Source: Candidatus Altarchaeota archaeon
Lineage (GTDB): Archaea; SpSt-1190
Reading direction: 5' to 3'
Length of the DNA stretch: 15,670 nucleotides
Assembly: GCA_030590165.1 (NCBI GenBank)
Contig: JAUUZA010000014.1
Coordinates: 1-15,670, forward strand
This document shows positions 7,137 through 15,670 of this stretch, one piece after another. Under the pieces are notes generated by a model, which was not told the origin of the DNA, did no database searches, and worked only from the letters and a program-made list of their open reading frames with translations. The translations under genes and the position numbers were made by a program. Position 1 is the first letter of the stretch. Each line of letters opens with the position of its first letter.

Positions 7137-7156
7137 TTTCTAATTTTATTTTGTTT

Positions 7157-8539
7157 ATGAAACAAATTTCTGAAGTTGTGTGGGAGCTTCCACCTGAGAA
7201 TGGGGGAGTTCCTGTGAAAGTTTATGCTTCAGAAATACTATTAAAAAATATGCAAAGAGATAGGACTCTTTTACAAGCAAGAAATGTTGCAAAACTTCCA
7301 AATGTTCTTCCCTGTGTTTCAGTTATGCCAGATGGCCATGAAGGTTATGGTTTTCCCATTGGTGGCGTTGCTGCCTTTCCAGCTGAAAGTGGTATTGTGA
7401 GTCCTGGGGGAATAGGTTATGATATTAATTGTGGAGTTCGTTTATTGAAGACAAACTTAGTTTTTGAAGATATTAAAAGTGAGTTACCAAGTTTGGTTAA
7501 TGAAATTTTTAAAGAAGTTCCGTGTGGTTTGGGTTCAGAAGGAAGACTTAATTTAACAAAAAAAGACTTTATTGAAATAAGTACTTCAGGTTTAAAATGG
7601 TCAGTAGATAATGGATATGCCAAAAAAAGTGAAACTAAGTTTGTTGAAGAAAAGGGAAGTATGGAAACCACACATTCAAATCTTAGTCAGAAATCAATTT
7701 CTCGAGGAATAAAACAAATTGGAACTCTTGGTGCTGGAAATCATTTTGTTGAAATACAAAGAGTCGAAAGTACATTTAGTCCAATTGCAGAAAAATTCGG
7801 ATTGAGTGAAAATCAAATAGTTATTATGGTTCATACAGGTTCACGCGGGTTTGGTCATCAAATTGCAAGTGAACATATTACGTCTCTTTTTCCAAAACAA
7901 AAAAAGTTTGGGTTTAATATTAATGAAAAAGAGTTAGTTGCTGCACCTCTTAATAGTAAAGAAGGTCAAGAATATCTTAGTTCAATGAAATGTGCAGTGA
8001 ATTTTGCGTTCACTAATAGGCAAGTTATTTCTCATTTTGTTGAACGAATTTTTGAAAAAAAGTTTGGTGAAACCTTTTCACTTTTATATGATGTAACGCA
8101 TAATATTGGGAAATTTGAAAAACATGGAGAAAACGTTTTTGTTCATAGAAAAGGGGCGACTCGCGCATTTGGTCCAGGAAGAAAAGAAATCCCACTTAAA
8201 TATCAAAAAACAGGTCAACCAGTTTTAATTCCAGGTTCAATGGGGACATCAAGTTATGTTCTTTTTGGCAAGGGAAATAAGGATACTTTTGAGAGTTCAT
8301 GTCATGGCGCTGGTAGAATTTTAAGTAGGTCAAAAGCAAAGAAAAGTTTTGATAGACAAGAAATTAAGACAAAATTAAAAAAACAAGGAATTTTTGTTAA
8401 ATCAAAATCAAGTTCAACTTTATCTGAAGAAGCTCCAAGGGCGTATAAAGATGTAGATGAAGTTGTTAAAGTAATTGAAAAGGCAAATATTTGTGGTTTA
8501 GTGGCAAGACTAAAACCGCTTGGTGTCGTCAAGGGATAA
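7157..8539 (+). CDS. rtcB: RNA-splicing ligase RtcB (tRNA ligase)
   Basis: RtcB joins exon ends with 2',3'-cyclic phosphate and 5'-OH using GTP and Mn, completing tRNA splicing. From ATG 7157 it has 460 residues. The metal and guanylylation residues appear in the expected order: DINC (D89, C92), GNHFVE (H196), VHTGSRG (H226), DVTHN (H315) and the GMP-accepting histidine in SCHGAGR (H383). The N-terminal VMPDGHEGYGFPIGGV (56-71) and the C-terminal LKPLGVVKG are typical. No intein is present, although RtcB is a known intein site in archaea. A TTG two codons upstream (7151) is a less likely start; the TATA-like box at 7130 is 24 bases from ATG 7157. Confidence 0.96.
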   Translation: MKQISEVVWELPPENGGVPVKVYASEILLKNMQRDRTLLQARNVAKLPNVLPCVSVMPDGHEGYGFPIGGVAAFPAESGIVSPGGIGYDINCGVRLLKTNLVFEDIKSELPSLVNEIFKEVPCGLGSEGRLNLTKKDFIEISTSGLKWSVDNGYAKKSETKFVEEKGSMETTHSNLSQKSISRGIKQIGTLGAGNHFVEIQRVESTFSPIAEKFGLSENQIVIMVHTGSRGFGHQIASEHITSLFPKQKKFGFNINEKELVAAPLNSKEGQEYLSSMKCAVNFAFTNRQVISHFVERIFEKKFGETFSLLYDVTHNIGKFEKHGENVFVHRKGATRAFGPGRKEIPLKYQKTGQPVLIPGSMGTSSYVLFGKGNKDTFESSCHGAGRILSRSKAKKSFDRQEIKTKLKKQGIFVKSKSSSTLSEEAPRAYKDVDEVVKVIEKANICGLVARLKPLGVVKG

Positions 8540-9394: not shown

Positions 9395-10669
9395 ATGAAT
9401 ATGAAAACTTTGTGGGTTTTATTTTTATTATTAGCTGCTCAAGCTATTGAATTAGATTATGATAGTTATTATACTGCACCAGCAAGCCTTCAAGAGAAAG
9501 GTTATTTGTATATTACTTTTTGTTCAACTAAAGATACAACAAGGGAGTTTGAATTTTATCCACAAGATTTTTCAGTGAGTCCCTTAGTTCTTGATATTAA
9601 TTTTGATGGAACTACTGCAGTTCCTGATTGTCGTCAAGTAGTTGTTCAGGCAACTTCAGATTCACCAGGATTGTTTGATTTGGTTATTGATGCCGGTGGT
9701 GATGATTGGGTACTTCCTGTTGAATTTTCTAAAATAGAACCAATTTTGATTTCTATTTCTGATTCAGTTTTGTATACAGGATACGACCAAGTTAATTTAG
9801 TTGTGAGTGGTATTGGGGATAATGTTTGGTTGACTATTGATTCTTCAATAGTTGGGGTGAATACTTTTCATAAGTCAAGTTTACCTGCAACATTTTCTGT
9901 AAATTTTTATTTTTCGAAAGAGGGATTTTATTCTGTCCCAGTTACCTTGTCGTATGACAAGAATGATTACACTTTAACTCAAACTTATGATTTAGGAATT
10001 AGAGTTGAAAAAGCACCAGTTCGAGTTAATAATAATTTAAGGGTTCCTTCAGATGGATATTCAAATATGACTATAGATTTAGAACTTCCTGAAAAAATAT
10101 ATAGTGGAACTTTAACATTAATTTCCGATTGTCTTTCTGGTGAAACATCAAAAAGAGTTGAAAATTTTCAATCAGGTGAACTTTCACTTTTAGTTAAAGG
10201 TGAATGTGACCCAGGGATTTATGAAGTTGATTTAACTATTGGAGATTTTGAGACCTCAGTTCCTCTTGATGTTTATGGACCTGAAGGTTATGAATTTTTC
10301 TTTAATACTTTTGAAAAAAGTGGCGTTCACAGTTTAGAAGTTGTTCTTGCTAATGAAGGAAGTCAAACAATGAAAGCCGTTTCAATGAGACTTCTTGATG
10401 GAGATTATCAAAAAGTTAGAGAGGGAAGTTTTATAGGGGATTTGGATTTTGGTGATTTTGATTCTTCTGAGCTTAAATTTATTCCACTTTCTAAATCTGT
10501 TGATTTGAATGTAAAAATTTCATATACTCAAAGTGGTGAAAGAAAAGAAATTCTTAAGACATATCCTTACACCTATGTAAAATCGTCAAATAGCACTTGG
10601 ATAATTATTGTTATTGTGTTGATTGGTGGAGGTTTTTGGTATGCGAAACGTCGTAAATCTCGTCGTTAA
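9395..10669 (+). CDS. secreted beta-rich protein with C-terminal membrane anchor, partner of the ABC permeases
   Basis: The protein has 424 residues. An N-terminal signal peptide (MNMKTLWVLFLLLAAQA) is followed by about 380 residues of beta-strand-rich, Asp/Ser/Gly-rich sequence, then a C-terminal helix (about 402-417) and a basic tail (AKRRKSRR). The chain therefore lies outside the cell, anchored at its C terminus. Four cysteines occur as two spaced pairs, near 43/79 and 246/272, suited to disulfides. It resembles the repeated immunoglobulin-like domains of archaeal S-layer-type (COG1361-like) proteins encoded beside MacB-type permeases; that assignment is by architecture only. Its 3' end overlaps the first permease by 29 bases, supporting a shared complex. 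Substrate or role unknown. Confidence 0.75.
   Translation: MNMKTLWVLFLLLAAQAIELDYDSYYTAPASLQEKGYLYITFCSTKDTTREFEFYPQDFSVSPLVLDINFDGTTAVPDCRQVVVQATSDSPGLFDLVIDAGGDDWVLPVEFSKIEPILISISDSVLYTGYDQVNLVVSGIGDNVWLTIDSSIVGVNTFHKSSLPATFSVNFYFSKEGFYSVPVTLSYDKNDYTLTQTYDLGIRVEKAPVRVNNNLRVPSDGYSNMTIDLELPEKIYSGTLTLISDCLSGETSKRVENFQSGELSLLVKGECDPGIYEVDLTIGDFETSVPLDVYGPEGYEFFFNTFEKSGVHSLEVVLANEGSQTMKAVSMRLLDGDYQKVREGSFIGDLDFGDFDSSELKFIPLSKSVDLNVKISYTQSGERKEILKTYPYTYVKSSNSTWIIIVIVLIGGGFWYAKRRKSRR
10628..10633 (+). promoter_or_regulatory. strong Shine-Dalgarno GGAGGT for the first permease
   Basis: GGAGGT lies inside the 3' end of the upstream gene, 7 bases before ATG 10641. This sets the permease start at 10641; TTG 10623 upstream is rejected. 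Confidence 0.7.
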
Positions 10670-11807
10670 GTTCTTGACTCATAGAAAGCTTAGAAGTGTT
10701 TTGACTACGCTTGGAATTGCAATAGGAGTTACTCTTGTTTTTAGTATTACTAGTTTGAAGGAAGGAACGATGGCAGCACTTACTGAAAATGTGAATGATT
10801 TAGGGGGGGATTTGATTACAATTATGCCTAAGTCAACAGGAATTTCTGGGACATCTCAATTATTTTCACAAAAGGAATTAAATGCACTTGAATCACTTTA
10901 TTTTGTTGAAGTTGCAGCTTCATTTTATTCTGGAATTCTTCCTGTAATAATTCGAGGAGAAGAAGAATATTTAACAGTGAGTGGAGTAAATCCAGAATCT
11001 GGAGAAAAACTTTTTAGAGAAATTTCAAGTTTTGAAGTTGAGTCTGGTAGAATGCTTGAAAAAAATGAACGGGGTAAAATTCTTATTGGTAGTAAATTGG
11101 CAACTGATAATAATCTTCAAATAGGGAGTCAAATTGAAATAAAAGATGAAAAATATCGTGTTGTTGGGATACTTGGTGAAGTAGGAAATCCACATAGAGA
11201 TTCTTCAATTAATATGAATGTTGAGGAACTTTGGGAACTTCTTGATGTTGAACCAGGAACGTATCAATATATGATGTTGAAAGTGAATGAAATAAAAATT
11301 GATGTGGTTGAAAGAACACTTGAACGCATAAGAGGAAAAGATAATTTTGAAGTTTCTACACCTCAAGATTTGATTAAGCAAGCCGGACAAATTCTTGATG
11401 TACTTAGTATTGTTTTTTCAACAATAGCAGGAATTAGTATAATTATTGGGGCAATTAATGTTGCTAATACAATGTATATGGCAGTAACTGAACGAACTAG
11501 AGATATTGGCATAATGAAGGCAATTGGAGCTAAAGAAAAAGACATATTAATAATTTTTTTACTTGAATCTGGATTTTTAAGTCTCATTGGGGGAGTTATT
11601 GGAGCTTTGTTTGGATATGGTCTTGCAACAATTTTTGCAATGGTGGCAAGAGAACTCACAGGAATTTCAAGTCTTTCACCAATATTTTCACCAGAACTTG
11701 TAGGTGGTACTATACTACTTTCATTTATTATTGGAGTTGTTTCAGGAATTTTTCCGGCAAGATATGCATCAAAATTAGAGCCATTGGAGGCGTTGAGGTA
11801 TGAGTGA
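10641..11807 (+). CDS. MacB/FtsX-family ABC permease, first paralogue
   Basis: The protein has 388 residues. The N-terminal cytoplasmic segment FLTHRKLRSVLTTLGIAIGV leads into helix 1 (about 17-37). A large extracellular MacB-type periplasmic-core-like domain covers about 40-245. Three C-terminal helices form the FtsX domain (about 250-280, 300-335 and 352-375), ending FPARYASKLEPLEALRYE. The phrase RTLGIAIG-like/RDIGIMKAIGA (coupling helix that contacts the ATPase) is conserved as TRDIGIMKAIGAKEKDI. It overlaps the next permease by 8 bases (ATGAGTGA), so the two are probably made in equal amounts. It pairs with the ATPase at 8738. It could move lipoproteins or peptides, or act as a mechanotransmitter. 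Confidence 0.9.
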   Translation: MRNVVNLVVKFLTHRKLRSVLTTLGIAIGVTLVFSITSLKEGTMAALTENVNDLGGDLITIMPKSTGISGTSQLFSQKELNALESLYFVEVAASFYSGILPVIIRGEEEYLTVSGVNPESGEKLFREISSFEVESGRMLEKNERGKILIGSKLATDNNLQIGSQIEIKDEKYRVVGILGEVGNPHRDSSINMNVEELWELLDVEPGTYQYMMLKVNEIKIDVVERTLERIRGKDNFEVSTPQDLIKQAGQILDVLSIVFSTIAGISIIIGAINVANTMYMAVTERTRDIGIMKAIGAKEKDILIIFLLESGFLSLIGGVIGALFGYGLATIFAMVARELTGISSLSPIFSPELVGGTILLSFIIGVVSGIFPARYASKLEPLEALRYE

Positions 11808-12975
11808 ATTCAGAAGACTTTTTGACTTAGTTTTCAAATTTGTGAAGCATCGTAAACTTAGAAGTATCTTAACAACTCTTGGAATTGCAGTTGGTGTCGC
11901 TCTTGTTTTTAGTTTAATGAGTATAAATGGAGGTCTCCAAAAATATATTTCAGATTCAATGGAAGGAATGGGAACTAATTTAGTTACAGTTATGCCAAAA
12001 GCAATGCTCAATCCAATGAGTGGAATTATTCCACCTTTTGATAAAGATGATATTGATGCACTCGATAATCTTTATTTTGTGAAAAACGCTTATGGTTTAA
12101 GTGTATCGATGCTTCCAATTGAAATAAAGGGTGAAGAATTTTATCAGATGGTTTTTGGAACAAAGTCAGGAATGACAAAATTATTTAGTGAAATGGAATC
12201 GTTTAAAATAGAAAAAGGGCGCGATTTTACTTTATCAGATAGAGGAAAAGTGGTGATGGGTTATGCCCTGGCTAAAACATATAATCTCGCACCAGGAAGT
12301 CAAATTAAAATTGATGATTTAGATTTTAGGGTGATTGGAGTTATTGGAGAAATTGGGAATAGTGAAGATGATAATAGTATTTTAATTCATATTGAAGATT
12401 TATGGGAGATTATTGGGGTTGATGAAGAATATAATATGATTTATTTAGACGTCCTTGAATTAAAAACTGAAGAAATAGAAAAAGCACTTGAAAAGTCAAG
12501 GGATGCTGAAGATTTTGATGTTATGACTATTGAAGGTATGATGGAACAAGTTGATCAAATTCTTTTAATTGTTAATGCAGTCTTTCTCGCACTTGCAAGT
12601 ATTAGTTTAATTGTCGGAAGTTTTGGTGTGGCTAATACAATGTATATGGCTGTACTTGAGCGCCATAAGGATATTGGAATTATGAAAGCAATAGGGGCAA
12701 GTTCTAAGGTTATTCTTTTAATTTTTGTTATTGAAGCTGGGTTTCTAAGTCTTTTAGGTGGAATTATGGGGATTGTGTTGGGGATGGGTCTTGCAAAATT
12801 ATTTGTTCTTGCTGCTGTGCTTGGAGCTGGTCTTACGACCTTAGAAGCAGTGTTTTCATTTGAGATGTTTATTATTACTGCAGTTCTTTCATTTATAATT
12901 GGGGTTGTTTCTGGTTATTTACCTGCAAAGAACGCATCTAGATTGGAACCTGTTGAAGCCTTTCGTCATAGCTAA
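11800..12975 (+). CDS. MacB/FtsX-family ABC permease, second paralogue
   Basis: The protein has 391 residues and the same architecture as its neighbour: KFVKHRKLRSILTTLGIAVG at the N terminus, helix 1, an extracellular core domain, the coupling segment RHKDIGIMKAIGASSKVI, and three C-terminal helices ending LPAKNASRLEPVEAFRHS. Close similarity along the whole length shows a tandem duplication, and the pair probably forms a heterodimer around the single ATPase. ATG 11800 is supported by GGAGG at 11786-11790 and by the overlap with the preceding stop. It is the last gene of the operon; the next gene has its own TATA box. Confidence 0.9.
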   Translation: MSEFRRLFDLVFKFVKHRKLRSILTTLGIAVGVALVFSLMSINGGLQKYISDSMEGMGTNLVTVMPKAMLNPMSGIIPPFDKDDIDALDNLYFVKNAYGLSVSMLPIEIKGEEFYQMVFGTKSGMTKLFSEMESFKIEKGRDFTLSDRGKVVMGYALAKTYNLAPGSQIKIDDLDFRVIGVIGEIGNSEDDNSILIHIEDLWEIIGVDEEYNMIYLDVLELKTEEIEKALEKSRDAEDFDVMTIEGMMEQVDQILLIVNAVFLALASISLIVGSFGVANTMYMAVLERHKDIGIMKAIGASSKVILLIFVIEAGFLSLLGGIMGIVLGMGLAKLFVLAAVLGAGLTTLEAVFSFEMFIITAVLSFIIGVVSGYLPAKNASRLEPVEAFRHS

Positions 12976-12978
12976 ATG

Positions 12979-12987
12979 ATTATAAAC
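12979..12987 (+). promoter_or_regulatory. TATA box of the ThiF-ThiI fusion gene
   Basis: ATTATAAAC is centred 24 bases before GTG 13007, in the 31-base gap after the second permease. There is no Shine-Dalgarno motif, so a leaderless GTG-start transcript is likely. Confidence 0.55.
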
Positions 12988-13006: not shown

Positions 13007-14950
13007 GTGAGATATTCCCGTCAAGAAAAGTTAGTAAATCAAGAAGTTTTGAAAAAGACTAAAGTTGCAGTTGTTGGAGTGGGTGGATTAGGTTGTCCCG
13101 TCTCAACTTATCTTGCCTTAGCTGGGGTTGGAACTATTTTTTTAATTGATAATGATAAAATTGAATTATCCAATCTTAATCGTCAATTTTTATTTACTGA
13201 AAAAGATATAGGAAAAAAGAAAATAGATGTTGCAAAAAAGAAACTTGAAGAAATTAATCCAGAAATAAATATCAAAATATTTGATGAAATTAATGCGAAG
13301 TCACTTAAGGTTGATTTAATTCTGGATTGTCTTGATAATTGGAAATCACGTCAATTACTTTGGGACAAAGCATTCACTTTATCAAAACCCGTAGTTCACG
13401 GTGCTGTTGAAGGATGGAAAGGGCAAGTTGCAGTTTTATTAAAAAAAGAAGACGCAGTTTTTTTTCAGAATAAGAAATTTAGCAAAGCTGAAAAAAAGGA
13501 GAATAATGAGGTAGTTGGGGCAATTGCAGGACTAACAGGTTCAAGAATGGCTTTAGAAGTCTTGGATTTTTTACAAGGAGTAAGGGCTTCAAAATTACTT
13601 CGTATAACTGAAAAAGGAACAGAAATCTTTCCTATTGGAGTTAAATCAAAATTAAAGTATACGCATGCGATGATTCGTTTCTCAGAGATTTGGCTTAAGA
13701 CAACACCAACTAGAAAAAAAATGTTAAAATTAATGAGAAATAATATTCAAGAAAAAATAAGATTAAAAGCTAAGCAAGAAGCTGCCCGTATTGTCGTACC
13801 GTATAATGATTCATTTGAAAAGCTTTCAAATGTTTTTGGAGTAAAATCTTTTAGTCCTTGTGTTAAAGTGAATCTAACAACTTTGGAAGAAGGATTCCGA
13901 AAATATTCTGAATCTGTTCTTTATCCAGGGCTTAAGTTTAGAGTTACAGTGAAAAGGATGATTAAATCTGGGAATAAAACATCTCAACAATTACAGGTTG
14001 ATTTGGGTGCAATTGCATATGAAACTGGGGCTAAAGTTAATTTGACTAAGTTTGACGTGAATATTGAAGTAGAAATTCATAAAGATTTTGCATTCATTTT
14101 TCATGAACGAATGAATGGTCCTGGTGGTTTCCCATATGGTTCACAAGGTAGGGCACTTTGTCTTTTTTCAGGTGGGATTGATTCACCCGTTGCAGCTTGG
14201 ATGGTTGCGCGTAGAGGGGCCAGTCTTGATTTTATCTTTATTAATCCATTAGGCCCTGCATTAGAAGCAAAAGTTTTAGGTGTTTTTTCGAGCCTTAAGA
14301 AATGGATTCCAGACTCAAAATTAAGGGTTGTTGATGTTTCAAAAGAAATTGAAGAAATAAGAAATCAAGTGAATGAAGGAAATAGACAAACAATTCTTAA
14401 GCGGTTTATGTATAAAGTTTCTGAAAAAGTTTCAAGAGGTAAACCTCTGGTTACTGGTGAATCCTTAGGTCAAGTTTCTTCACAAACATTGAAAAGTTTG
14501 ACAGTTATTCAACAGTCTATTAAAAGTTTAATATTGAGACCTTTGATTGGGATGGATAAAGATGAAATAGTGAAATTAGCTAGAATGATAGGTAGTTTTG
14601 AAAAGAGTTCACAACTTTCTGAATATTGTTCACTTGAAAGCCATAGTAATGCAAATCCTGAATTATTAGAAATTATTCAAGAGGAAAAAAAGTTAGATTT
14701 TGATTATGTCGAAATTATTTCAAGAATTCGTGAAGCAAAGGCGGGAGAAGTTGATATCAGTCCACCTGATGGAAAATTTGAAATCGTTAAAATTTGGGAA
14801 GGAATTCCTGAATTAGAAAAAGAAAAGAAATATCTTTTTATTTGTAAAAGTGGAAACATGTCTGATGAAATGGCGCTGAAGGCAAGAAAACAAGGATTTG
14901 AAGTTTATTCCTTGGATTTGAAACAAGCTAAGAAAAAAAAATTTATTTGA
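13007..14950 (+). CDS. thiI: ThiF (E1-like)-ThiI tRNA 4-thiouridine synthase-rhodanese fusion
   Basis: This 647-residue protein combines two enzymes. Residues 1-215 are a ThiF/MoeB/UbaA-type adenylation domain: RYSRQ at the start, GVGGLG (24-29), DNDKIELSNLNRQF (48-61), DCLDN (107-111) and GWKGQVAV (136-143). Residues about 222-380 are the ThiI ferredoxin-like and THUMP regions that bind tRNA, ending GPGGFPYGSQG. Residues 383-580 form the PP-loop ATPase with SGGIDS (388-393), TGESLGQVSSQTL (483-495) and the cysteine of EYC (C541), matching the resolving Cys344 of E. coli ThiI. Residues about 590-640 are a rhodanese-like domain with active-site loop CKSGNMS (C613), matching Cys456. The E1 domain lacks the usual CxxC zinc pairs and the usual catalytic cysteine: there is no Cys from 109 to 284. 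The likely reactions are s4U8 formation in tRNA and carrier-protein thiocarboxylation. GTG start with a TATA box 24 bases upstream. Confidence 0.9.
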   Translation: MRYSRQEKLVNQEVLKKTKVAVVGVGGLGCPVSTYLALAGVGTIFLIDNDKIELSNLNRQFLFTEKDIGKKKIDVAKKKLEEINPEINIKIFDEINAKSLKVDLILDCLDNWKSRQLLWDKAFTLSKPVVHGAVEGWKGQVAVLLKKEDAVFFQNKKFSKAEKKENNEVVGAIAGLTGSRMALEVLDFLQGVRASKLLRITEKGTEIFPIGVKSKLKYTHAMIRFSEIWLKTTPTRKKMLKLMRNNIQEKIRLKAKQEAARIVVPYNDSFEKLSNVFGVKSFSPCVKVNLTTLEEGFRKYSESVLYPGLKFRVTVKRMIKSGNKTSQQLQVDLGAIAYETGAKVNLTKFDVNIEVEIHKDFAFIFHERMNGPGGFPYGSQGRALCLFSGGIDSPVAAWMVARRGASLDFIFINPLGPALEAKVLGVFSSLKKWIPDSKLRVVDVSKEIEEIRNQVNEGNRQTILKRFMYKVSEKVSRGKPLVTGESLGQVSSQTLKSLTVIQQSIKSLILRPLIGMDKDEIVKLARMIGSFEKSSQLSEYCSLESHSNANPELLEIIQEEKKLDFDYVEIISRIREAKAGEVDISPPDGKFEIVKIWEGIPELEKEKKYLFICKSGNMSDEMALKARKQGFEVYSLDLKQAKKKKFI

Positions 14951-15353
14951 TTGTGTGAAAGGTAATTTTTGTTTGTTCCTTTTTAGAAAATTTTTTTAAT
15001 TCATTTAATAATTCAGGAACAAATTTGAATAAGTGACCGGAATCCCGACAGTCACTACTTCCAAAATTTTTTATAACTTCAAATTTTTTTACAAGAAGTT
15101 TAGCTAATTTTTCTTCAAAGTCTTTTGTTAAAGGCATTGTTGCTATGTGTTTGATTCTAGATTTATTAGTTAAATAATCAATATGCCATTTTTGAATTTT
15201 GCCTTTTTTTAAGTGGCGTTTAATACGTCCACCTCCTTGATTTGAGCCAATATATGCATATTTACCTTCAAATTTTAGTTTTCCAAGTTTTCCTACTTCA
15301 ATTTCACAAGAAGGAATTTCGAAGATTAAGACATAAATTCCTTTTTCAAACAT
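14943..15353 (-). CDS. DUF123-family GIY-YIG nuclease-like protein
   Basis: The protein has 136 residues with the DUF123 version of the GIY-YIG fold. GIYVLIFE (5-12) and GKYAYIGS (30-37) are the two signature strands. GGGRIKRHLKKGKIQKWHIDYL (40-61) supplies the arginine and histidines. FGSSDCRDSGHLF (97-109) is the closing motif. The more usual closing motif has a second cysteine (CxCxSHLF); here it is replaced, so a metal site may be altered. Proteins of this group occur alone or fused to endonuclease III in archaea and are presumed to act on nucleic acids; activity is not established from sequence. It overlaps the fusion gene by 8 bases tail to tail and is divergent from the carrier-protein gene. 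Confidence 0.85.
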   Translation of the reverse strand: MFEKGIYVLIFEIPSCEIEVGKLGKLKFEGKYAYIGSNQGGGRIKRHLKKGKIQKWHIDYLTNKSRIKHIATMPLTKDFEEKLAKLLVKKFEVIKNFGSSDCRDSGHLFKFVPELLNELKKFSKKEQTKITFHTIK

Positions 15354-15381: not shown

Positions 15382-15401
15382 GACAGGTGGATTTTTTTTA
15401 T

Positions 15402-15599
15402 ATGGTTGAAGTCGAGTTTGAAGGTAAGATTAAAAACTTAAAATTAAATGAGCCTCAGCTTATTATAGATTTAATGACTATATTAAAAATAAACACGGAA
15501 GCATATGTTTGCATTCTTAATGGTTGTGTAGTTACTGAGAACGAAAAAGTGACTGAAACAGACAAAATTAAATTGGTGAAGGTGTGGAGTGGTGGTTAA
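15402..15599 (+). CDS. ThiS/MoaD/Urm1-type beta-grasp sulfur carrier (ubiquitin-like) protein
   Basis: The protein has 65 residues from ATG 15402. Its length, the NG turn in CILNGCVVTE (37-46), the TDKIKLVKV strand and the terminal Gly-Gly (64-65) identify a beta-grasp carrier of the ThiS, MoaD, Urm1 or SAMP kind. The C-terminal glycine would be adenylated by an E1-like enzyme and converted to a thiocarboxylate that donates sulfur. The fusion protein upstream is the obvious E1 candidate and the thiolase downstream the obvious recipient. It ends exactly at SGG, needing no processing. GTG 15387 would add five residues and is less likely. Two cysteines (37, 42) are unusual in so small a carrier. 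Whether it serves tRNA thiolation, thiamine or molybdopterin cannot be read directly. Confidence 0.82.
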   Translation: MVEVEFEGKIKNLKLNEPQLIIDLMTILKINTEAYVCILNGCVVTENEKVTETDKIKLVKVWSGG

Positions 15600-15670
15600 T
15601 TGTTTTTGTGGAAAAAAAGCAGTTTATTTAGAAAATAAAGCTTTATGTAAATTTCATTTTAATGAATGGA
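15592..15670 (+). CDS. N terminus of an Ncs6/CTU1/TtcA-type tRNA 2-thiolation enzyme (cut by window end)
   Basis: The frame starts at GTG 15592, overlaps the carrier-protein stop by 8 bases and stays open to the window end (26 codons). GGTG at 15581-15584 gives a ribosome binding site at 7 bases. The visible residues MVNCFCGKKAVYLENKALC followed by KFHFNEW match the N-terminal zinc motif of archaeal Ncs6/TtcA proteins (CxC or CxxC, then A-V-Y, LC, and a HF pair). The PP-loop domain would lie beyond the window. With the adjacent carrier protein this predicts s2U formation at tRNA position 34. The short visible part limits certainty. Confidence 0.7.
   Translation, partial: MVNCFCGKKAVYLENKALCKFHFNEW

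Follow-up and report, generated by a model that had tools for sequence, protein, structure and literature searches.

An archaeal E1-ThiI-rhodanese fusion protein, an apparently undescribed architecture, and its proposed role in sulfur distribution for tRNA thiolation

A gene of Candidatus Altarchaeota raises the question of what a single polypeptide would do that carries an E1-like adenylation domain, the domains of ThiI and a rhodanese, and whether such a polypeptide is genuine at all. The E1-like activator of a ubiquitin-like sulfur carrier and ThiI, both enzymes of tRNA sulfur chemistry, normally occur as two proteins. Proteins joining an E1 domain to a rhodanese and encoded beside ThiS/MoaD-like carriers have long been known in bacteria (PMC1779556). 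Archaeal Urm1 activators are described as having no rhodanese (PMC7911844), and a review gives the rhodanese as absent from most archaeal ThiI and lists the sulfur donor of archaeal tRNA thiolation as unknown (PMC5372739). A 2010 survey of archaeal ubiquitin-like systems reports a rhodanese-ThiI fusion and gene links between E1 and ThiI, and the portions of it available to us contain no E1-ThiI fusion (PMC2948915); that same paper, in those portions, was the sole match for a ThiF-ThiI fusion in the open-licence literature, matching by its statement on the rhodanese. An earlier note on this DNA, made from the sequence by itself, knew of no described protein of such architecture, which is consistent with these literature searches and with the genome surveys given below, within their limits. 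We find that the E1-ThiI-rhodanese architecture is real and conserved, and it is apparently an undescribed arrangement of known parts.

One open frame and its domains

The window, by which we mean the whole 15,670-nucleotide stretch of DNA analysed, contains the fusion gene and its parts as follows.

13007..14950, + strand: ThiF-ThiI-rhodanese fusion gene, 647 aa (single open frame; Pfam domains; orthologues in genomes G006 and G002 with the same order)
13037..13591, + strand: E1-like ThiF/MoeB adenylation domain, residues 11-195 (Pfam ThiF, E 2.2e-54; alignment to ThiF 1zud)
13667..13855, + strand: ThiI N-terminal ferredoxin-like domain, residues 221-283 (Pfam ThiI_fer, E 2e-9)
13880..14104, + strand: THUMP tRNA-binding domain, residues 292-366 (Pfam THUMP, E 3.2e-6)
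14138..14698, + strand: ThiI PP-loop domain, residues 378-564, with SGGIDS at 388-393 (Pfam ThiI, E 1.3e-49)
14627..14629, + strand: codon of C541 (in EYC), which corresponds to C344 of E. coli ThiI (sequence and alignment)
14774..14947, + strand: shortened rhodanese, about residues 590-647 (hhalign 97.3%; short form also in L077-L080 and L082)
14843..14845, + strand: codon of C613, counterpart of the persulfide carrier C456 of E. coli ThiI (alignment)

By an open-reading-frame check the frame runs from a GTG start through 647 codons with zero internal stops, and Pfam places in it, in this order, ThiF, ThiI_fer, THUMP and ThiI, all four passing the curated cut-offs. The motifs follow the same course (GVGGLG at residue 24, NLNRQ at 56, LDCLDN at 106, SGGIDS at 388, EYC with C541 and CKSGNMS with C613), and they lie where the earlier note had placed them, in one 647-residue protein. 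About 24 bases 5' of the GTG, at 12980-12986, stands a TTATAAA that, to the eye, would suit a TATA box of archaeal type and transcription without a leader.

That an assembly or frame error merged two adjacent genes is scarcely credible, even with all assemblies being drafts of many contigs and with an Aenigmatarchaeota contig (L059) having ThiF and a ThiI-like PP-loop protein as adjoining separate genes, given that the junction is identically in frame in two relatives and that the fused domains behave as single clades in trees. The G006 orthologue has 645 aa and is 53% identical over residues 1-647, and the G002 orthologue is 43% identical over 2-600, where the contig end cuts off the remainder; a stop or frameshift at residues 205-225, the junction, was looked for, and both genomes read through it in frame. 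Because the junction recurs in two more genomes of the family, the fusion is not an assembly error, and these independent orthologues rule out a misassembly or frameshift artefact.

The E1 half aligns to structures of ThiF, MoeB and Uba4, 1zud and 1jw9 among them, and the adenylation fold with its nucleotide residues is present according to Pfam, these alignments and a Foldseek search with the AlphaFold model, which returned ThiF, MoeB and Uba4 for this half and solved ThiI for the other. It retains R5, GVGGLG at 24-29, D48/D50, R59, K72 and D107; R5, R59, K72 and D107 are invariant across the aligned fused proteins and are the counterparts of the MoeB adenylation residues R14, R73, K86 and D130. 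A listing of cysteines finds no CxxC zinc motif anywhere in the fused proteins or in their relative in G005, and of seven other ThiF proteins inspected five have two CxxC pairs. The CYRC of E. coli ThiF aligns with FFQN in the fusion, and at the position of the E1 thioester cysteine the window protein has asparagine, the catalytic cysteine being gone; in G002, G005 and G006 the alignment places a cysteine near this position. For the window E1 to be active, the direct attack on the adenylate would have to come from the persulfide of the rhodanese, as is supposed for systems of the MoeB type. Scores with the NCBIfam equivalog models for ThiF, MoeB and UbaA are all far under their cut-offs (103 against 450 for UbaA) and therefore place the E1 half in the family and in no named subfamily. 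The same genome has a second ThiF-family protein of 369 aa (L032:1129-2238, contig C36), whose N-terminal part is long and which has a single CxxC.

The ThiI structures 2c5s and 4kr6 align to the fusion from residues 216/222, and the NCBIfam ThiI model TIGR00342 scores 262.9 bits, just under its cut-off of 264.5. Both redox cysteines of rhodanese-type ThiI, C541 and C613, are present and are kept in the fused relatives where these are sequenced. The motif of C541 reads EFC in G002, G003, G004 and G006, and C613 is kept in G003, G004, G005 and G006, that is, in every relative with a sequenced tail, G002 ending earlier.

The tail itself has no match to the Pfam rhodanese model (PF00581), and a phmmer search of the last 79 residues against the PDB gave a best E of only 0.13. 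When ten short tails were compared by hhalign with the full rhodaneses of archaeal ThiI, a single comparison, the probability was 97.3% with an E of 1.7e-11, a score to which the shared linker may contribute part. The first strand and the cysteine loop align, and roughly 22 columns in the middle are absent, the H/W-x-PGA segment among them; the unfused ThiI proteins L077-L080 and L082 have the same short tail, and in the AlphaFold model its pLDDT is about 59-70, of moderate confidence. Of the full ThiI with a C-terminal rhodanese that had been claimed at first sight, the ThiI domains and the SGGIDS, EYC and CKSGNMS motifs are thus borne out, and the rhodanese turns out to be shortened and invisible to Pfam. 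A Pfam search of the window genome for further rhodaneses gave none, with a positive control in 13 of 14 genomes, though a second short rhodanese could escape a model that is blind to this form. The AlphaFold model of the whole protein has a mean pLDDT of 72.6 and a pTM of 0.42, and since its inter-domain certainty is too low we draw nothing from the placement of the domains as to whether C613 reaches either active site.

Spread and history of the fusion

In this family of archaea with small genomes, of which seven genomes were covered, the window genome and G006 have the whole fusion and G002 has all but its end; G003 and G004 have pieces at contig ends that are consistent with it, and G001 has no match. 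In 394 archaeal genomes searched at E <= 1e-46 no single match spanned both halves outside the family, nor did any in the phyla of G224 (19 genomes), G142 (29) and G167 (156), samples that overlap. Bacteria were covered by a pattern scan over 84,980 species genomes, of a kind that finds close relatives, and its matches were ThiI or ThiF as separate genes; in viral contigs there was a single weak ThiF-like match, and plasmid records gave none covering >80% of the query. Whether the architecture might already be common had been a concern of the earlier note, and the outcome favours the finding, with the fusion seen in one archaeal family only among the genomes searched; restriction to this family is a statement on that searched set.

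Three candidates were rejected. L020 looked like a ThiI with a 224-residue N-terminal extension, and the extension is just open frame 5' of a likely internal start, with no ThiF match; the match of L059 to residues 2-574 comes from two separate adjacent genes; and the match of L056 to residue 273 comes from an ordinary ThiF followed by an unrelated gene. On the Aenigmatarchaeota contig (L059:392-4282) IscS, IscU, a cysteine-synthase-like gene, a PP-loop-only ThiI-like protein and ThiF stand in a row, the last two overlapping as separate neighbours of the kind that is fused in the window.

When 54 ThiI domains are placed in a tree, the five from fused proteins group as one clade (99/87), which nests in archaeal ThiI with a short rhodanese (100/98); these in turn group with ThiI that has a full rhodanese, from Pyrobaculum and others (99/95), and the ThiI of G007 and G009, which belong to the same class, are placed elsewhere. 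The nearest relatives of the ThiI half, L077-L080 and L082, are 39-44% identical to it and share its short rhodanese; they differ in having no E1 domain, and ThiF is not adjacent to them in the stretches read. The E1 tree likewise unites the window protein with those of G006, G002 and G005 in one clade (100/97), whose internal order is unresolved.

The G005 protein is of a different build, with 292 aa comprising E1, a short linker and a short rhodanese with its cysteine kept, and no ThiI core, and G005 is assigned to one genus with G006, which has the full fusion. Apart from this protein G005 has just one ThiI-like match, to a degenerate paralogue (E 7.6e-4), and as that genome is 87% complete a separate ThiI might in principle lie elsewhere, in its unsequenced part. 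Because the short tail is characteristic of ThiI, the simplest history would have the fusion arise first and G005 later lose the ThiI core and keep the rhodanese. A short rhodanese typical of the unfused ThiI of the sister clade would therefore have arrived with ThiI and been kept for another use after ThiI was lost, and the G005 protein stands as a natural control that separates use of the rhodanese for the carrier from its use for ThiI.

A conserved protein of about 330 aa occurs in the window genome (L036:1279-2298, contig C43), in G005 (L037:1489-2475) and in G006 (L035:1174-2169). It has a weak match to ThiI and none to Pfam and keeps a GGLP motif, and its PP-loop is degenerate, with VIWENNYQSQ, FIWDGTYKSQ and FIWDGGYKSQ replacing SGGIDS. 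It sits between EF-1A-like and GlmS-like genes in the window genome and in G005, and is possibly a catalytically dead ThiI paralogue.

Neighbouring genes

The genes flanking the fusion in the window are these.

10623..12975, + strand: two MacB/FtsX-type permease genes, directly upstream of the fusion (Pfam MacB_PCD, FtsX)
14943..15353, - strand: DUF123 protein, lying between the fusion and the carrier and presumably no part of their pathway (Pfam DUF123, E 2.4e-20)
15402..15599, + strand: putative ubiquitin-like sulfur carrier, 65 aa, ending VWSGG (PDB SAMP2 5lda, E 2.9e-4; PF1061 1rws)
15592..15670, + strand: start of NcsA, a tRNA 2-thiolation PP-loop enzyme, truncated by the contig end (VVNCFCGKKA is the NcsA start in L106 and L107)

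For the carrier we preferred the ATG at 15402 to the GTG at 15387. Its matches to Pfam SAMP2/ThiS are weak and below cut-off; its orthologues in G003, G005 and G006 end VRVWSGG, with the terminal GG conserved. The start of NcsA overlaps the end of the carrier, and there the window, which is the whole of contig C11, stops. Contig C25 of the same genome opens inside NcsA (C25:2-730; NCBIfam NcsA, E 2.8e-41) and continues with SufC, SufB, SufD, SufS and SufU; as G005 and G006 show the same order, NcsA and then SufC-B-D-S-U, on single contigs, C25 very likely follows C11. The NCBIfam model that fits this NcsA best is the one for NcsA, ahead of that for TtuA, yet the scores are under both cut-offs, and s2U34 is for this reason tentatively preferred over s2T54 as its product.

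The carrier adjoins NcsA in the window genome and in G003, G005 and G006. The genes for fusion, carrier and NcsA overlap in G003, and in G005 carrier and NcsA follow directly after the E1-rhodanese gene, the carrier starting 14 bases past its end. A DUF123 gene lies between fusion and carrier in G006 as well and is absent from this position in G003 and G005; with this opposite-strand gene intervening, co-transcription of fusion and carrier is not a given in the window or in G006. The permease genes hold the same position in G003, G005 and G006. Farther upstream in the window, 7151-8539 encodes an RtcB ligase (462 aa). The NCBIfam models that it matches best describe RtcB with an intein, yet given its length it seems to be without one; in G002 (L004) an RtcB-like gene stands just upstream of the fusion.

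SufS is present in the window genome. G001 and G004 have MoaE, which was not found in the window genome or in G002, G003, G005 and G006. A search for Thi4 in the window genome also gave nothing, and as this genome is 87.6% complete such an absence is weak evidence. The neighbourhoods examined showed no thiamine genes. With MoaE and Thi4 not found, use of the fusion for molybdopterin or for Thi4-type thiamine synthesis is unlikely, and the thiamine (ThiS) background against which the protein had first been read is a poor fit, the carrier adjoining NcsA. In G004 a MoeA gene (L109:1080-2330) overlaps the end of the fusion, in the place of the carrier, and since MoeA adjoins the fusion and MoaE is present, the E1 of that genome may serve molybdopterin synthesis as well.

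A shared persulfide and the alternatives

The fusion resembles three known systems. E. coli-type ThiI has the same order of ferredoxin-like, THUMP, PP-loop and rhodanese domains, and its C344 and C456 correspond to C541 and C613; it differs in not being joined to ThiF, the fusion adding a whole E1 in front and having its rhodanese shortened. Uba4, MOCS3 and MoeZ carry E1 and then rhodanese on one chain, with an Urm1-like carrier and an Ncs6/NcsA-type enzyme as partners, and the 292-aa G005 protein has exactly their two-domain plan; the fusion, unlike them, has a complete ThiI between E1 and rhodanese, no zinc CxxC and, in the window genome, no E1 thioester cysteine, and its rhodanese is of the shortened ThiI type. 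UbaA, the archaeal SAMP-activating E1, is likewise an archaeal E1 domain with a SAMP2-like carrier and NcsA as partners, and differs in being without ThiI and, by a statement on archaeal activators, without rhodanese (PMC7911844).

We consider it probable that the fusion is a sulfur-distribution enzyme for tRNA thiolation, in which C613 would supply sulfur in two directions, to the carrier, on the way to NcsA and s2U, and to the PP-loop of ThiI, on the way to s4U8. The following scheme, in which we infer every transfer of sulfur, builds on what was observed: the parts with their residues, how these are conserved, the order of the genes, and the variant in G005. SufS with SufU would transfer cysteine sulfur to C613 of the short rhodanese, and the E1 domain, which has the residues for it, would adenylate the GG end of the carrier encoded at 15402. 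As this E1 is without the usual thioester cysteine, the C613 persulfide would attack the carrier adenylate directly, and release would leave a carrier thiocarboxylate. From gene order and family, the carrier would then pass its sulfur to NcsA, which would make 2-thiouridine with wobble U34 as the likeliest site. The persulfide would also have a second use, in which the ferredoxin-like and THUMP domains would bind tRNA, and the PP-loop would adenylate U8 on the way to s4U8, with C541, a residue found in place, forming and resolving a disulfide as E. coli C344 does. The two routes would share the C613 persulfide, and one rhodanese would therefore serve two routes of tRNA thiolation. The earlier note had the C613 persulfide attack a carrier adenylate made on the same chain or supply the PP-loop; both transfers keep their conditional standing, with the E1-rhodanese of G005 and the carrier-NcsA-Suf neighbourhood now pointing the same way.

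The E1 and ThiI might instead be joined just for co-production, the rhodanese working for ThiI alone and the E1-carrier pair taking sulfur from sulfide or SufS. The same short rhodanese does occur on unfused ThiI in other archaea, the Urm1-activating enzymes of archaea are described as being without a rhodanese (PMC7911844), and purified Methanococcus NcsA can use sulfide (PMC10067955). We nevertheless regard a mere tether as unlikely: in G005 the rhodanese and its cysteine are still fused to E1 after loss of the whole ThiI core, and E1 and rhodanese remaining joined there lends support to dual use of C613.

A carrier thiocarboxylate that also feeds the PP-loop of the same chain, making s4U8 carrier-dependent, strikes us as quite improbable. 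To our knowledge no carrier-dependent ThiI has been described, and the fusion keeps C541 as well as C613, the two residues by which E. coli ThiI works independently of a carrier. Such a transfer would nonetheless come naturally to a chain that has E1 and PP-loop together, and two other PP-loop enzymes, NcsA and TtuA, are considered to take their sulfur from carrier thiocarboxylates (PMC5372739). If it held, one polypeptide would be a sulfur hub for two tRNA modifications and 4-thiouridine synthesis would depend on a ubiquitin-like protein.

It is very improbable that the E1 half works mainly in SAMPylation or molybdopterin synthesis with tRNA sulfur secondary, for all that archaeal UbaA performs all three jobs (PMC7911844) and that G004 combines MoeA beside the fusion with MoaE elsewhere, since five of the genomes yielded no MoaE and the carrier adjoins NcsA in four.

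On the reading that we prefer, with C613 serving both routes, this family unites E1, ThiI and rhodanese in one protein, encoded next to a carrier, NcsA and a cysteine desulfurase, C613 is the candidate persulfide residue for both s2U and s4U synthesis, and the fusion makes the standing question of which sulfur donor serves the archaeal carrier directly testable.
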